Virus record (IMG/VR): IMGVR_UViG_3300044701_001692
Coordinates: 1-22,841 of that record
Length of the DNA stretch: 22,841 nt
Direction: 5' to 3' (one strand)
Source of the DNA: a virus
Shown here: piece after piece, positions 4,028 to 21,464 of the stretch
How the letters are laid out: each line of letters begins with the position of its first letter
How positions within the stretch are numbered: position 1 is the first letter of the stretch
The notes under the pieces: generated by a model
The model's input: only the letters and a program-made list of their open reading frames with translations
The model's database searches: none
Told to the model about the DNA's origin: nothing
Position numbers and translations under genes: made by a program

Positions 4028-5557
4028 TCACGCCCCCATCCAGCCGGCTGACTGGTTGATACGGTCAGCGTACACCGTCTGACGCTCTGGCCGGAAGCTA
4101 GACTGCCGCGAGGCGACGGGGAAAGCAAACGTACACGCCAGCGCGTCGGCTGCGTCAGGCGATGCCAGTCCTCTTGCTTTCATGTCCTTCTTGCTCTCCA
4201 AGAAGATCGTTCCAGCCGAATCCGGTTTAGTCTTCGGCCCTGTCAGGTCGGACTTCAACTGCCGATCCGTTGGGATACTCGCACTACGCAACCAGTCGCG
4301 CATGGCGCCCCACAGTTCCGCTCGCTTGTTGCCCCACATGATCGGGTTCTTTGACTTCCAACCAAAGTTCACCCCACGCACCTTATACCGCTGTTCTGTC
4401 AGCCGGTCAAGTATCCCGTAACCCAGGCCACCCTCGTCGATCACCGTCAGCGTGGGCTTAAACTCTTCGATCGCGTCGATGACGTGCCCGACCGTCGTCA
4501 TCGTGTCGTCGCCTCGATACCGTTTGATGTGCAGCAGGTCGCGCCCTTGTCGCACCACGATCACCGTGCTGTCGGCGCCCGAGCGAGCCGGGTCGATACC
4601 AATCACAATCGGCGCGTCTGCGTCCTTGTACTTAGGGCGCCGCGCGGCCTCGTCGACCAGCGACGGCGCGATGAACTGATCGTCCCCCGCTGACGGGAAC
4701 TGACCGTAGACCTCAATGCGCGCCTGCGGGCTGTCCTCGCCGTACTCCTCAATGATCTGCTCGTAAACGCTTTTGTCGGTGTCTTCAACGTCGCGCGCGT
4801 CAATTGAATCTGTGTTCCAAAAGTCCCGCTTAGCGTTAAAGCACTCAAAGAAGTAGCCGCTGTTGCGACGCGGGTTACTGAACGCGCACCAGAACCGATG
4901 CGGGGTGTTCTCTGTGAAAAAACCCTGGGCGACGTCCCAAATCGGGTCCGGAATGCCCGACGCCTCGTCAAAAATCAAACACACCCCGTCGACGTTGTGC
5001 AGACCCGCGTACGCGTCCGGATTTTCCTCCGACCAGAGGCGCCCCTCTGCCGACCAAAACCGCGTACCTTTTCGCAGATCCCGCTCCACAATCTCAGCCA
5101 GCCATTTAGCCGGTGTGACGCGCGTTGCGCTGATCTCAAACCAATGGTTGTTGATCAGCAGCGCCAGCCACTTGGTAATCTCCGCCCAGGTGATTGAGCG
5201 AAGCTGCGCCTCGCTGTTGGCTGAAACAATTGTGGTCGACCCAATACGCGTTGTCAGCATCCACAGCACGATCCAGCTGACCAAGGCCGACTTGCCAATA
5301 CCGCGCCCGGACGCCACCGCGCTTCTGAACACCTTGTACGCCGTTGCGTCGTCGTTGTCTCGAATGTGGTCGGCCATCTTCCGCAGGAGGCGCCGCTGCC
5401 ACCGTCTAGGTCCAGCGTGGTGGGCGAGAGGTGTGTTGGGCTGCCCCCACGGGAACGCGAAAAGGACGAACGCTTCAGGATCGTTCTTGAGCTTCGACGA
5501 CCACAGGCGCGACATGAGGAGTTCTTCCTCCGCCGCTGAGTAGCGGGGTTGCTGCAT
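4028..5557 (-). CDS. terL: Terminase large subunit (ATPase and nuclease)
   Basis: The 509-residue product is the motor that pumps DNA through the portal and cuts concatemers. The ATPase half has Walker A ASGRGIGKSA (residues 82-91), Walker B LIFDEAS (194-200) and a coupling-type segment around FSNPRRNSGYF (226-236). The RNase H-like nuclease half has GIDPARSG (D322), TVIDEGG (D374) and SPDAADALA (acidic pair D468/D471), the usual three acidic clusters. Start ATG 5557 has GAGGTG just upstream and lies 83 bp inside the terS frame; a second candidate, Met15 at 5515, has GGAGGA about ten bases upstream. The gene is followed within 1 bp by the basic-protein cassette. The packaging mode (headful or cos) cannot be settled from this gene alone. 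Confidence 0.95.
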   Translation of the reverse strand: MQQPRYSAAEEELLMSRLWSSKLKNDPEAFVLFAFPWGQPNTPLAHHAGPRRWQRRLLRKMADHIRDNDDATAYKVFRSAVASGRGIGKSALVSWIVLWMLTTRIGSTTIVSANSEAQLRSITWAEITKWLALLINNHWFEISATRVTPAKWLAEIVERDLRKGTRFWSAEGRLWSEENPDAYAGLHNVDGVCLIFDEASGIPDPIWDVAQGFFTENTPHRFWCAFSNPRRNSGYFFECFNAKRDFWNTDSIDARDVEDTDKSVYEQIIEEYGEDSPQARIEVYGQFPSAGDDQFIAPSLVDEAARRPKYKDADAPIVIGIDPARSGADSTVIVVRQGRDLLHIKRYRGDDTMTTVGHVIDAIEEFKPTLTVIDEGGLGYGILDRLTEQRYKVRGVNFGWKSKNPIMWGNKRAELWGAMRDWLRSASIPTDRQLKSDLTGPKTKPDSAGTIFLESKKDMKARGLASPDAADALACTFAFPVASRQSSFRPERQTVYADRINQSAGWMGA

Positions 5558-5948
5558 CCGTCACCTCTATATCTATTATGCGCTGGTCTGCTTTCTCCAG
5601 CGCGGCCATCACGCTGATCTGTTGCGTCACATCCACTTGAACGTGTTGAGTCGTGTACCACCCGTGCTTGTGCTTTAGCACTTCCAACGCCGCCTTGGCG
5701 TCGCCCGACAGCGCTGCGTCCATCATCACTTTAGACAGGCTAGCCTCAGCGTCGGCGCGGCCTTTCTGTTCCGCCAGCGCCGCCATCGGATCCATCTCGC
5801 ACAACCGTCTGAACTCGGTGGGCAGCATTCCTGCCGCTAGCGCTAGGTTGTCACCGCGAAGCCCTAGCTTTGCGGCGTCATAGATCGACTGGAGGCGCCC
5901 CTCCGTCGCTTTCAGTTGTCGTGTCGTAATTGGCAGATTCTGAAACAT
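5475..5948 (-). CDS. terS: Terminase small subunit-like protein
   Basis: The 157-residue protein lies directly upstream of TerL and overlaps it by 83 bp out of frame. Residues about 10-55 (TTRQLKATEGRLQSIYDAAKLGLRGDNLALAAGMLPTEFRRLCE) look like a helix-turn-helix DNA-binding region. The middle (MAALAEQKGRADAEASLSKVMMDAALSGDAKAALEVLKHKHGW) matches the helical core and GDxKAALxxLKxxxGW pattern common in small terminases. This subunit usually forms a ring that recognises pac or cos and regulates TerL. No strong Shine-Dalgarno precedes ATG 5948, although no other ATG start is plausible. It is the first gene of the minus-strand packaging operon and faces the repeat-rich non-coding region. Family assignment rests on position and pattern. 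Confidence 0.85.
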   Translation of the reverse strand: MFQNLPITTRQLKATEGRLQSIYDAAKLGLRGDNLALAAGMLPTEFRRLCEMDPMAALAEQKGRADAEASLSKVMMDAALSGDAKAALEVLKHKHGWYTTQHVQVDVTQQISVMAALEKADQRIIDIEVTDAATPLLSGGGRTPHVAPVVVEAQERS

Positions 5949-6005
5949 TTGGCTTTTTTATCAGATTGCTGTGCGGCTGGCAAGCATACTGGGTATTTGT
6001 ACAGC

Positions 6006-6062
6006 AGTTGGTGGTTAGTAGTTGGTGGTTAGCAGTTGGTGGTCAGTGGTTAGCAGTTTGCA
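6006..6062. repeat. Heptamer-based short tandem repeats
   Basis: Eight consecutive 7-base units are visible: AGTTGGT, GGTTAGT, AGTTGGT, GGTTAGC, AGTTGGT, GGTCAGT, GGTTAGC, AGTTTGC. They read as three imperfect 14-bp copies plus a degenerate tail. Similar heptamer repeats are known from cyanobacteria and some other bacteria. They lie about 60-115 bp upstream of terS, where a terminase-binding or regulatory function would be conceivable. Confidence 0.85.
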
Positions 6063-6386
6063 GAAAAAATAAAAAATTTTTGCGACCCCTCCGATTTTGA
6101 CCGGTCGGCGCGCCGGCCCTACCCGGGGGGCCGCAAGCTGGCGGCAACCATCCCCTGGCCGCGCGTCCTGGCATGGGTCAGATGGGTCATGCCCCACGCA
6201 GTCGGTCGGCACGCGAACACGGCGCACGCCTGATCGGCGCATGGGTCGCATGGGCCATGCACCATGCTTTGATGCCGTGATGCGAGCGGGGGAGGGGGCG
6301 CGGCCCATGAGGCGCCCCCAATGGGTCACCGGGGTCATATGGGCGTGGGTATTTAAGTCGCTGCCTGCGTAGCGCTGTACGTACTA

Positions 6387-6402
6387 CTGTATATATATAC
6401 AG
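6387..6402. promoter_or_regulatory. 16-bp perfect palindrome, TA-rich
   Basis: CTGTATATATATACAG is a perfect palindrome located where the flanking GGGTCA/TGACCC motifs change orientation. It could be an operator for a dimeric regulator or an easily melted core of an origin. A TTGACA hexamer sits at 6413-6418, but I see no -10 at the right distance on the plus strand. Confidence 0.6.
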
Positions 6403-6602
6403 CCAAACAATTTTGACAGTCTTCCACCGATACATGACCCATTTAGCCCATTAGCTCGGGGCGCTGGCCCGAGCGCCTACCCCGCGCATGACCCCGACAA
6501 ATGACCCCGCTGCGACAGATTATCAATCAGACGCCGATAGCCCATATGACCCACGCCTTCCCGGGGCCAGATAGGCCATGTAAGAAATAGTAAGAAAGCT
6601 AC

Positions 6603-6630
6603 TTGCAACACAATCTGCAATCGTGTATCG
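6603..6630 (+). promoter_or_regulatory. Weak candidate promoter for the early operon
   Basis: TTGCAA (6603-6608) and TATCGT (6625-6630) are separated by 16 bp, each matching four of six sigma-70 consensus positions. The position, about 45 bp before the first early start codon, is suitable. The match is modest and phage or host factors could use other sites. Confidence 0.3.
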
Positions 6631-6675
6631 TTGTCATCAGTGCAGCAAATCATCAATCAACATGGAGTAACCCAT

Positions 6676-6876
6676 ATGACCCCGACGACACTTTCAAACG
6701 TCCAGGCGCAGCAAGTCGCGATCGCTCGCGCTGCCCTTTTCATCGGCGCATTCACCCCCGCCGCGCGCGCGCTGAGCGCTCAGATCCGCGCGTGCGTCGA
6801 CGCCGGCCAGCGCGCCGAGCTGCTGGCGATCGCGCGCGAGCTGGACATCGACTCGCATCGCGACTTCATTGTTTGA
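6676..6876 (+). CDS. Small early protein, 66 aa, unknown
   Basis: The first gene of the plus-strand early block. I chose ATG 6676 because GGAG lies eight bases upstream; an in-frame TTG at 6631 would add 15 residues without a comparable site. The start codon lies inside a CCCATATGACCC repeat shared with the upstream control region. The product is Ala/Arg-rich and probably all helical (QAQQVAIARAALFIGAFTPAARALSAQIRACVDAGQRAELLAIARELDID), without a recognisable motif. It is followed by a tetraloop hairpin and then the next gene. A regulatory role is conceivable because of the repeat at its start, but nothing in the protein shows it. Confidence 0.65.
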   Translation: MTPTTLSNVQAQQVAIARAALFIGAFTPAARALSAQIRACVDAGQRAELLAIARELDIDSHRDFIV

Positions 6877-8905: not shown

Positions 8906-8928
8906 TCAATCCACTGGAGTCCAGTACC

Positions 8929-9534
8929 ATGCTCGAATTCACCGTCACTCGTCGCGCCTTGCGCGCGATCGCATCCTGCGCGCCGACTGTCGACGTGCGC
9001 TATTACTTGCTCGGCGTGCACGTCCGCGCTGACGCGCGCGGCATCATCCTCGAGTCGACCGACGGGCACGCGCTCGCGCGCCTACGGGTCAGCCCCGCGC
9101 CTGTCGGCACGCCCGTGAGCGTGATTTTGCCGCTCGAGGGGCTCAAAGCCGTTACGGCCGGCGGGAAGAAAACCCTCGACGATATCCTGACCGTGACGGT
9201 CGACGCGGCAGCTAATCGCGTGACAATCGTCGACCGCACGGTAACGCATACGCTTACGCTAGTCGACGGCCAGTATCCGGACACCGATCAAGTCACGCGG
9301 AAAGCGCTTGCCGCGCCGGTCGAAATGGCGCAGTTTAATCCGGCGCTACTCGAGCGCCTGCACGCGTGCATTAAGACCGCGTCAGGTGCAGACAACGCGA
9401 TACCCTGCTACAGTCAACGCGGGATGAATCCGTGCATTGTCACCGCATCGGAATTGCCCGAGTTTATCGGCCTGGTGATGCCTTGGCGCGCCGACGACGT
9501 CGCCGTGCCGGCGTGGGCGAGCGCTCAAGCATGA
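8929..9534 (+). CDS. Sliding-clamp-like (DnaN-related) protein, 201 aa
   Basis: Three DnaN hallmarks are visible: VDVRYYLLGVHVRADARGIILESTDGHALARLRV (21-54), with STDGHALA matching the usual ATDGHRLA; a long beta segment with VILPLEGLKAV (65-75); and LTLVDGQYPDTDQV (109-122), matching the DG.[FY]PD motif at a domain end. Bacterial DnaN is about 366 residues with three domains per subunit. This protein is about half that and appears to hold two domains, so a closed ring would need three subunits, as in PCNA, if it forms a ring. A role as processivity factor for the phage polymerase is inferred. ATG 8929 has GGAG nine bases upstream. The stop overlaps a tiny hydrophobic ORF. Confidence 0.75.
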   Translation: MLEFTVTRRALRAIASCAPTVDVRYYLLGVHVRADARGIILESTDGHALARLRVSPAPVGTPVSVILPLEGLKAVTAGGKKTLDDILTVTVDAAANRVTIVDRTVTHTLTLVDGQYPDTDQVTRKALAAPVEMAQFNPALLERLHACIKTASGADNAIPCYSQRGMNPCIVTASELPEFIGLVMPWRADDVAVPAWASAQA

Positions 9535-9656: not shown

Positions 9657-11927
9657 CTAACCGACCGCCTTTAGGGGGCCGGACTTCGAGCGCTCAATCA
9701 GGCGCCGGACTTCCGACCGATTGCCGTCGAATTTCGTGAGCACTTCAGGCGACGACATGACGTGGACCTTGGTCGCGTGTTCGACCGTCTTGACCCGCCC
9801 AAGGTCCAGCCAGCCGGCCTCCCGAAACGCTGAGAACAGACTGTAGACGCTGATTTTTGACCCGGCGGGCATATAGCCGGTCAGACGGTCGCACAATTGC
9901 TGCCAGGGACCTTGAACCGCCCCTAGACTGAACTCGCCGCGCCGCTCCTGCATCATCTCGACGAGGATCGCCTCAACGGGCGAAAGCGCCGCTTGAAGCA
10001 TGATTGCTTTCGCCTCGGTCGTCATGGGGGCAGCGCCAGGCTGGAACCGGCTGACATCCCGCGCACGCAGCCAGCCCGCGACCGCGTCGCGCCCGCCGGC
10101 GTCGTACCACTGCCAGAGTCGTTCGGCCTCGGTCGGGTCCATCCGCGCCGCCTCGGACCAGAGCACAAACCAGCGCCGATCGTCGCTGGTCAACGTAATC
10201 GCGACCCGCTCGTTTGAAAATGCTACGACGGCCAAACGGTTCAGCGCGTCGAACGGGTGCAAGCCCTTGCGGTTCACGCTCAGAAGCTCGGGCGGCGCCG
10301 CCAACAGGGGTTTCAACCGATTCTCGAGCGCTCGACGGTCAGCCGCGTCGGTCTGGCGCAGTTCATTAATGACAAGCACTTCAGACATGAGCGCGTAGCC
10401 CCACTGGCTGTTGATCTCCTCGTTCCGGACCGTGCCGATGTTTTCCCGACTGGCGCCGCCGACCGCGTACAGGAACGGATCCCAGAGCGTATCCTTGCCG
10501 CTGCCAGGCACGCCGCCGTGCAGGATGCCGTGATTGATCTTGATGTCCGGATGCTGGACCTTGAACGCCATCCAATCGAGCAGGTGGACCCGCTCGGCGT
10601 CGTCTGGCACCATGCGCGCGCAGTGCTCGAGCCACGGCGTGACGTCACCCGGCACGCCGGCCGGCCGCGCGTCGCGCCACACGTTGGCGTACACGTCACC
10701 GGCCCGCGACACAAGCACGCCCGAGCCTGGCGCGTAGGTGACGCCTTGAAGCACCCGAGCGCCCATCTCCTGACGGTTCTCGTCGAACGATTTTGACGCC
10801 TCGATTTTGCGCGGCTTGCCGTTCGCCGTTCTGTGAATCGAATAGCAGGCGACGTGCCGGAACACGGCGTCGAAATTCGAGCGCGAATACTGCTTTCGGG
10901 CCACCAGATCAAAATACCCGTCATCGGCGTGCAGGTAGGCGAAGCGCTCGAACCAACCGGCCTTCTCAACCCGACCGGCCTCCCGCCGTTCGACCTGCGC
11001 CACGACGCGCGCGGCATCATCCGGGTACGCTGCGGTCGGTCGGATCTTATCCAGCGCTGCGCCGAGCGTCGTCGCGACAAGCTCGTCGCGCAGCCCATAG
11101 GCGACCGACGGGCCGCCCTGCGCGCCGACCCACTCGAGGAACCGCGCCGAGTCCCAGTCGACACAATGGGCGTGCAGACACTTATACGCGCGCGTCGTCG
11201 GGAAGTAACGCCCCTCGACGTCATCATTCGAGTGCTCGTCCGCATTCGGGCAGACCACGCCCGCCCAGCCGCTCGAGTTCGGGCGCTCAAGCAGCAGACC
11301 CTCGTCCGATAGCCACGCCAGCACCTCGTCTGACCCGTCGTCCTCGACCGTGATCGAGCGCACGTCCGCCGACACGGGACCGGGCGTCACACCCATCGCG
11401 TCAAGGATCTGTGTAAGTGAGTACTCACGTTCTTTGTGCCACTCGATCAGGCGCGCCTCGAACCCACCCTTCTTGTGGTTGACCGAGCCCGGCAGTCGGA
11501 AGTTGCGGACCGAGTTCGTCGCGCCCTCATCAGTAAACCCGGCGGCTGCGATCGCCTTGATCGCCGCGCTGAACTCGGCTTTGGTCGGTTGATCATCGAG
11601 CGCGAAGGCGTACCCCCACTGGAAGTTGCCCGGACTGCTCTCGATCTTCCAAGTCGGCTCGATCGGCGGCGCCTTGCTCTTGGTCCCGATGTCATCAAGC
11701 ATCATCACCAACACCCGCTCGATGTTGTCCCGCGAGGCGCTCATGCGCGCCTCGAGCCGCTCGACGATAAAGCTCCCGGTGTTGCCGTACCAGGCGCCGC
11801 GACCATCGTAGGCCGCCGGCAGCTCGGGCAAATAGACCCAACCGTTCCTGCCCTTCTTCTGACGCACCAAGAGCGCCGTCTCACCCTCTGGCGCCAGCCA
11901 CGCCAGCCATTGAACAAAGTCATTCAT
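9657..11927 (-). CDS. Primase/SF3-type helicase replication protein
   Basis: The 756-residue protein combines a primase-polymerase-like N-terminus with a superfamily 3 helicase. Residues about 65-185 resemble the AEP/RepB-like domain of phage and plasmid primases: an acidic pair in VMMLDDIG (D78, D79) and TNSVRNFRLPGSVNHKKG (137-154). A probable zinc site follows (C226, H232, C250, C255). The helicase has Walker A GGVPGSGKDT (471-480), Walker B VLVINE (517-522) and a sensor-like VVAFSNE (567-573), as in DUF5906/P4-type helicases. A winged-helix-like C-terminus is possible at about 650-730. It would unwind the fork and prime DNA synthesis. The start overlaps the polymerase stop as ATGA, so the two are co-translated; it is the last gene of its operon. 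Confidence 0.9.
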   Translation of the reverse strand: MNDFVQWLAWLAPEGETALLVRQKKGRNGWVYLPELPAAYDGRGAWYGNTGSFIVERLEARMSASRDNIERVLVMMLDDIGTKSKAPPIEPTWKIESSPGNFQWGYAFALDDQPTKAEFSAAIKAIAAAGFTDEGATNSVRNFRLPGSVNHKKGGFEARLIEWHKEREYSLTQILDAMGVTPGPVSADVRSITVEDDGSDEVLAWLSDEGLLLERPNSSGWAGVVCPNADEHSNDDVEGRYFPTTRAYKCLHAHCVDWDSARFLEWVGAQGGPSVAYGLRDELVATTLGAALDKIRPTAAYPDDAARVVAQVERREAGRVEKAGWFERFAYLHADDGYFDLVARKQYSRSNFDAVFRHVACYSIHRTANGKPRKIEASKSFDENRQEMGARVLQGVTYAPGSGVLVSRAGDVYANVWRDARPAGVPGDVTPWLEHCARMVPDDAERVHLLDWMAFKVQHPDIKINHGILHGGVPGSGKDTLWDPFLYAVGGASRENIGTVRNEEINSQWGYALMSEVLVINELRQTDAADRRALENRLKPLLAAPPELLSVNRKGLHPFDALNRLAVVAFSNERVAITLTSDDRRWFVLWSEAARMDPTEAERLWQWYDAGGRDAVAGWLRARDVSRFQPGAAPMTTEAKAIMLQAALSPVEAILVEMMQERRGEFSLGAVQGPWQQLCDRLTGYMPAGSKISVYSLFSAFREAGWLDLGRVKTVEHATKVHVMSSPEVLTKFDGNRSEVRRLIERSKSGPLKAVG

Positions 11928-20914: not shown

Positions 20915-21102
20915 GTATGTGCTCTGAGTGCGGGTCTTGGAACACCAAAACACTTGAGACAAGAAAGGATACGAGGTACAACTGGCGATGGAGAAGAAAG
21001 AAATGCAACGATTGTCAGGCAGTGTTCTCAAGCTACGAGATTGCAGAAAAGTTTCTGGGGACTCCAGAACCACTGCCCGGCGGCCGGCTCGAACGCCGTT
21101 AG
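20911..21102 (+). CDS. Small zinc-ribbon protein, NrdR-N-terminus-like, 63 aa
   Basis: The start overlaps the previous stop as ATGA with AAGGA upstream. Cysteine pairs C4-x2-C7 and C32-x2-C35 frame CSECGSWNTKTLETR ... WRRKKCNDCQAVFSSYE, matching the zinc ribbon at the N-terminus of NrdR (CPxCGxxxTxVxxSR ... RRRECxxCxxRFTTYE). The ATP-cone domain of NrdR is absent, so this is a ribbon alone, probably DNA- or protein-binding. Its 3' end overlaps the next gene frame by 115 bp. Confidence 0.75.
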   Translation: MSMCSECGSWNTKTLETRKDTRYNWRWRRKKCNDCQAVFSSYEIAEKFLGTPEPLPGGRLERR

Positions 21103-21464
21103 AGCTGTACACCGAAATGCTCAAGCACCTGCTCGAGGGCGGCGTCACCGCCCAAGAGATCGCTCATCTGTCTAACAGCACCCCGCAGTCGGTGCAGAAG
21201 TTTCTGAAAGAATTGAAGCGACAGAAGCTCATCTACATCTCAGGATGGCAGATGAAAAACAACAACCGCATCAGACTACCGCAGTACAAACTAGGAGACG
21301 GCGTTGATAAACCTAAACCCAAACGATTGCCCGCCAGCGTTGCCTCGAAGCGGTGGCGCGACCGGCAGAAAGTCAAGAAGCACTTCGACCCGTTCTTCGC
21401 CATCTGCCGTCCGATGGCCGTTCCCGGCGCAGCCGATTCCACCAAGCGGGCCCGTGCCGCTTAA
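20988..21464 (+). CDS. Winged-helix-like protein, up to 158 aa, start uncertain
   Basis: The convincing part begins near PLELYTEMLKHLLEGGVTAQEIAHLSNSTPQSVQKFLKELKRQKLIYISGW (about 37-87), a helix-turn-helix with recognition helix TPQSVQKFLKELK and a wing-like IYISGWQ. A Lys/Arg-rich tail with SKRWRDRQKVKKHF follows. The frame is open upstream through the zinc-ribbon gene. Candidate starts are ATG 20988, ATG 21003 (GGAG about ten bases upstream) and ATG 21117, which would clip the first helix. The residues before about 35 look like out-of-frame translation. It probably regulates phage transcription; targets are unknown. Confidence 0.7.
   Translation: MEKKEMQRLSGSVLKLRDCRKVSGDSRTTARRPARTPLELYTEMLKHLLEGGVTAQEIAHLSNSTPQSVQKFLKELKRQKLIYISGWQMKNNNRIRLPQYKLGDGVDKPKPKRLPASVASKRWRDRQKVKKHFDPFFAICRPMAVPGAADSTKRARAA

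Follow-up and report, generated by a model that had tools for sequence, protein, structure and literature searches.

A predicted iteron origin with a LexA box in its AT-rich core, matched to the C-terminal domain of an NrS-1/P4-type primase-helicase in uncultured phages

Analysis of the virus record IMGVR_UViG_3300044701_001692 (22,841 bp, hereafter the window) and its relatives indicates that an array of short repeats between the late and early operons probably serves as the origin of replication for a phage primase-helicase of the NrS-1/P4 type, with a LexA site in the AT-rich core. What can be read directly from the sequences is the array with its geometry and conserved place, the LexA box and the pairing of the repeat motif with the C-terminal part of the primase-helicase; from these we infer binding by the enzyme, origin function and repression by LexA. 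The window is taken to be a fragment because the relatives of its large terminase subunit (TerL) include complete podovirus records of 38 kb.

The array lies, as the first-pass annotation of this DNA had stated, between divergent operons, inside the approximately 0.7 kb of non-coding DNA that separates the leftward late operon from the rightward early operon. The first gene of the late operon is a small-terminase-like ORF (TerS, 5475..5948, minus strand; the ORF in the matching place of OR003940 is annotated as terminase small subunit), which precedes TerL (4028-5557). The first early ORF (66 aa, 6676..6876, plus strand) has a GGAG just upstream of its start codon. The proposed initiator (9657..11927, minus strand) is a fusion of a primase with a D5/SF3-type helicase, in which a RepB-primase-like N-terminus (the RepB_primase match is just below the Pfam cut-off) is combined with a DUF5906/NrS-1-type helicase. 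The early genes additionally include one for a sliding-clamp-like protein (DNA polymerase III beta; 8926-9534), of which the relatives' versions are highly divergent. A BLASTN comparison of the array region with known phages returned no match.

The hexamer GGGTCA/TGACCC occurs 18 times in the window, compared with 11.0 occurrences expected from dinucleotide shuffles, and 9 of the 18 fall within the 508 bp of 6175-6682, where the window-wide shuffle rate gives, by simple arithmetic, an expectation of about 0.25. The first-pass annotation, which had put this expectation below one and proposed counting the hexamer genome-wide, is borne out on both points, the motif not being frequent in the rest of the window. 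Its description of four GGGTCA copies to the left and five TGACCC copies to the right of a palindrome is likewise accurate, with all nine in the claimed strand order (GGGTCA on the plus strand at 6175, 6184, 6323 and 6332; TGACCC at 6435, 6489, 6502, 6547 and 6677), as is its report of an exact 12-mer present once forward and twice as its complement: GGGTCATATGGG is found forward at 6332 and reversed at 6541 and 6671, with no further copy in the window. The last of these 12-mers contains the first early start codon, again as described, the TGACCC at 6677 overlapping the ATG at 6676. What the hexamer count had missed is the real repeat unit, which was recognised by comparison with relatives as a 17-bp tandem site, TGACCCATnTGACCCAT, made of hexamer halves with a 9-bp period. 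Across 109 loci, 9 bp is the most frequent same-strand spacing (293 cases), followed by 10 bp (71 cases).

Scanning with TGACCCATnTGACCCAT identifies six sites in the region; the remainder of the window has four weaker ones. Three tandem sites on the minus strand lie to the left of a 97-bp AT-richer gap, namely 6173..6189 (TGACCCATCTGACCCAT, the exact consensus), 6241..6257 (TGGCCCATGCGACCCAT, degenerate) and 6321..6337 (TGACCCCGGTGACCCAT), and three on the plus strand lie to its right, namely 6435..6451 (TGACCCATTTAGCCCAT), 6538..6554 (TAGCCCATATGACCCAC) and 6668..6684 (TAACCCATATGACCCCG, in which the first early ORF has its start codon, at 6676). Two single ATGACCCCG copies, 13 bp apart, are located on the plus strand at 6488..6509. 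The cluster is unique in the genome, as judged from the window, which is a fragment, and from complete-length relatives; the window shows no second such cluster.

The site-free stretch between the opposed iteron sets (6338..6434) is a candidate unwinding element. In 60-bp windows, its AT content reaches 62%, compared with 25-33% over most of the left flank, and across 81 loci whose arrays switch strand, the DNA separating the two sets (median 94 bp) is 60% AT versus 43% in the rest of the array. The change of GC skew that the first-pass annotation had proposed to look for does not materialise: there is no turn at the array, and we dropped GC skew as evidence for an origin. Detrended cumulative AT skew, computed over the window, is lowest at 6397, and the corresponding minimum falls within approximately 0.7 kb of the array for 7 of the 8 longer relatives; this turn coincides with the divergent gene orientation, which counts against reading it as an origin signal.

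The palindrome, which the first-pass annotation had placed exactly (6387-6402) without recognising its identity, is CTGTATATATATACAG, a consensus LexA/SOS box of the form CTGT-N8-ACAG and the sole such site in the window. The extended box (6385..6404, TACTGTATATATATACAGCC) matches the E. coli-type consensus TACTGTATATATATACAGTA, which may not be that of the host, at 18 of 20 positions. CTGT-N8-ACAG is the LexA motif in most beta- and gamma-proteobacteria (PMC3323433), and relatives of the TerL are present in contigs of Rhodoferax/Burkholderiales metagenome-assembled genomes (MAGs). Among relatives, CTGTN8ACAG is found in 61 of 174 distinct array regions, versus 1.65 expected, with the arms retained and the inner octamers many and varied. 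Where the box lies mid-array, the motif is mostly in one orientation on its left (152 versus 53) and mostly in the opposite one on its right (296 versus 78). Given that about two thirds of the relatives lack the box and only about one third carry it, LexA control appears to be common in this group but not universal. The relatives lacking it include a TGACCC group with GTTTTATAGGTGAAAC at the box position (L016, L020, L023 and L027 carry this sequence mid-array, as a putative regulator site, in place of the LexA box). A scan of the region for sigma-70 promoter consensus sequences and terminators found nothing.

The place of the array upstream of TerS is kept in many relatives, in line with the positional conservation on which the first-pass annotation had made its proposal depend, and the motif differs by lineage (TGACCCAT, TACCCCAC, TGTCCACA, TACCCCAA, TGACCCAA, TGCCCAT and (G/A)CCTA, among others; the TGTCCACA arrays came from primase-based searches). 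Where TerL identity is 72-100%, arrays frequently occupy the corresponding position but are built from other motifs, and in some more distant relatives no clear array was seen. All of these relatives come from metagenomic or database contigs. We assigned motif classes by our own rule, and 110 loci remained after a score threshold was applied. One of the relatives, L005 (DSL-LC05, OR003940), carries a CTGACCCAC array in the matching position; its primase found no match in the search with the window primase, and the C-terminus of that primase contains a GW...KKKVTWAINP stretch that resembles a helix-wing pattern.

The DNA between the array and terS shows features of its own. At 6003-6058 of the window, there is a short tandem repeat of 14-bp AGCAGTTGGTGGTT units, and at the matching place L010, L018, L023 and L231 have, in several cases, unrelated short tandem repeats of up to 17 copies. 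Non-coding conservation in the region is highest next to terS, at about 6069-6125 (columns 680-760 of alignment A1), in a block with AAAACGGAGGGGTCGCACAAATTTTTTT and a GC-rich GGGCCGGC stretch in relatives; this block is possibly a packaging site or a late leader.

The motif is uniform within each genome and differs between phages with nearly identical flanking genes, and this pattern therefore calls for a matched trans-acting partner. In an attempt to identify it, we determined, for each gene, the share of pairs at least 90% identical that differ in motif class, pairs that are not independent of each other. This share is 7% (33 of 489) for the primase C-terminus, with 25 of the 33 conflicts tracing to one contig, compared with 20% (85 of 432) for the helicase core, 35% (256 of 731) for TerS, 43% (341 of 799) for TerL and about 25-53% for those early genes that provide enough pairs. 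A matrix regression over 87 loci gave the primase C-terminus the only large independent effect (0.234 per SD, a value reached in 0 of 1000 permutations), TerL retaining a small one (0.074), with -0.006 for TerS and -0.07 for the helicase core. Nearest-neighbour prediction of the motif was correct for 38-41 of 49 loci with the C-terminal segments, which are only modestly ahead of the helicase core (36 of 49), for 30 of 49 with TerS and for 23 of 42 with TerL. Taken together, these comparisons suggest that the array motif follows the C-terminal domain of the primase-helicase, better than it follows TerL or the helicase core, and does not follow TerS or the early genes.

Contradicting this pairing, the contig IMGVR_UViG_3300044911_001532 (L023/L182) combines a TACCCC-type primase with a TGACCC array and could be a recombinant, an assembly chimaera or a true exception. 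The identity of the C-termini of L023 and L025 had led us to an early reading that excluded the primase, which was overturned when approximately 200 more loci left L023 as the single clear exception; a few further primase C-terminal pairs, 91-98% identical, have somewhat different motifs. Among the binders that the first-pass annotation had named, covariation favours the primase-helicase and speaks against the two small early proteins. The 50-residue helix-turn-helix (HTH) protein is 95% identical in L010, whose array is TACCCCAA, and was not detected in several TGACCC phages, and the 66-residue protein was not detected in most TGACCC relatives. The small early proteins e49, e61, e66, e90, e221 and e253, as well as the clamp, do not track the motif and were set aside. 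The same applies to a winged-HTH ORF near the endolysin gene, whose recognition helix, in a comparison of four genomes, does not distinguish TGACCC phages from TACCCC phages. This small, fast-evolving winged-helix-like protein is encoded near the lysis genes (20988-21464 in the window; near the endolysin gene in G002, G003 and G006) and ends, in three relatives, in a conserved SYPHxRGYDD tail.

Within the C-terminal domain of the primase-helicase (residues 617-756; 9660..10079, minus strand), the type of which predicts the array motif, covariation with the motif is highest in the wing (residues 713-720; 9768..9791, minus strand), where the mean mutual information is 0.46, versus 0.14 in the helicase core; the top columns are 715 and 716 (wing), 702 (recognition helix) and 709 (strand). 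A natural chimaera is particularly informative. L160, with a TGTCCAC array, and L166, L168, L169 and L175, with TGACCCA arrays, share 98-99% of the helicase core and have essentially the same HTH helices; up to and including the recognition helix they show little or no difference, and divergence begins at the strand and wing. The pairing of SGDYP(S/T)KK wings with TGACCCA arrays, and of RLKSRxxDxKKH-type wings with TGTCCAC arrays, recurs in separate primase backgrounds; a Rhodoferax-MAG contig from outside the comparison set (L290) fits this scheme, with a TGTCCACA-type array and the RLKSR-type wing RLKSRRHDSKKHVF. An AlphaFold model of residues 617-756, built with 25 sequences, consists of a helix, a short strand, two helices and a strand-wing-strand unit (pLDDT about 90-95 over the core), so that the domain is modelled as a winged helix. 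The best viral fold match (BFVD) is the C-terminal part of a protein annotated as an NrS-1-like helicase (TM 0.85), and the PDB fold matches are weak (best E 0.05) and mainly to winged-helix proteins of the replication terminator protein, PadR and HsmR types; a sequence search of solved structures with the C-terminal profile found none.

These results bear on three other explanations. The first-pass annotation had offered an iteron origin and a master operator set side by side, and the evidence favours the former. An operator array, on which a phage repressor or activator would control the divergent early and late promoters in the manner of immunity operators or stoperators, would account for the divergent intergenic location, the site over the first early start codon, the outward orientation, the LexA box and the fast turnover of the motif among relatives. 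However, neither an S24-type or HTH_3 repressor nor a tyrosine integrase was found in the eight records searched, some of which are perhaps fragments, so that a classical lysogeny repressor is not evident; none of the early genes tested follows the motif, a phage whose array has a different motif conserves the 50-aa HTH protein, and the small winged-HTH protein near the lysis genes does not follow it either (four genomes). We consider this explanation unlikely. It is improbable, too, that the primase-helicase acts on the repeats mainly as a regulator of early and late transcription while replication starts elsewhere. Covariation points to a likely partner rather than to a process, and there is a start codon under one of the sites and a LexA box between them, but enzymes of this class are known to use origins in which iteron sets surround an AT-rich core (PMC6092414, PMC7581432), and the window shows no other cluster of the motif.

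A packaging site of the pac or cosB kind, with the small terminase binding the repeats, is suggested by the position of the array upstream of the small terminase gene in relatives. Nevertheless, TerS is 100% identical in L027 (TGACCC) and L025 (TACCCC), 256 of the 731 closely similar TerS pairs differ in motif, and TerS has no effect in the regression, which together speak strongly against it as the binder; moreover, the separate conserved block adjoining terS is a better packaging candidate. We regard a packaging function of the array as highly improbable.

Under the favoured origin model, the C-terminal winged helix of the primase-helicase would bind the 9-bp-period tandem iterons, the helicase would load on both sides of the AT-richer segment, and the loaded helicase would melt this core, whereupon replication would start. 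Given that the LexA box lies in the AT-rich core, host LexA bound there is expected to hold back divergent early and late transcription until it is cleaved, and perhaps also to block origin opening. As a tentative extension, core-bound host LexA might gate origin firing directly, and the family might diverge into origin types through joint change of wing and iterons; if so, phage replication, beyond transcription alone, would wait for host DNA damage. The analysis yields a predicted origin and initiator for a group of uncultured phages that is widespread and probably has Burkholderiales hosts (the window phage is from freshwater), and places a host SOS site within the predicted origin. It also provides a natural series of matched variants of a winged helix and its putative DNA site, among them near-isogenic wing swaps; a recognition code might be read from this series.

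The proposed system resembles the origins of PICI/SaPI and P4-type elements in that two sets of short repeats flank an AT-rich region, in the self-loading helicase initiator (Rep or Pri-Rep) with an iteron-recognising C-terminal domain, which is predicted here, and in the existence of allelic variants (PMC6092414, PMC7581432, PMC4234260). In particular, SCCmec Cch2 binds its own direct repeats, its isolated C-terminal domain binding the origin (PMC7581432), and the winged helix of the P4 alpha protein binds the P4 origin repeats (PMC4234260). Unlike in those elements, the array belongs to a tailed phage genome, so that, at the sequence level, an origin layout reported as particular to satellites is now seen in a full tailed phage; its iteron sets are inverted about the core, which contains the LexA box; and, whereas the SaPI/PICI origin is directly downstream of the initiator gene, the array is approximately 3 kb away, across the early operon. 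The window helicase domain matches the solved C-terminal region of the NrS-1 phage primase-polymerase (PDB 6k9c/6k9e, residues 443-592, E 5e-5; PMC7102993). The NrS-1 tail was reported to have a novel fold that hexamers require (PMC7102993), whereas the C-terminal domain analyzed here is modelled as a winged helix and is linked to iterons. With the LexA-controlled phages GIL01, CTX, N15 (antirepressor) and 186 (tum), the window phage shares a LexA box in a control region (PMC4551915 and references therein); it differs from them in that the box is located between two iteron sets and that no CI-like repressor was found in the phages searched.
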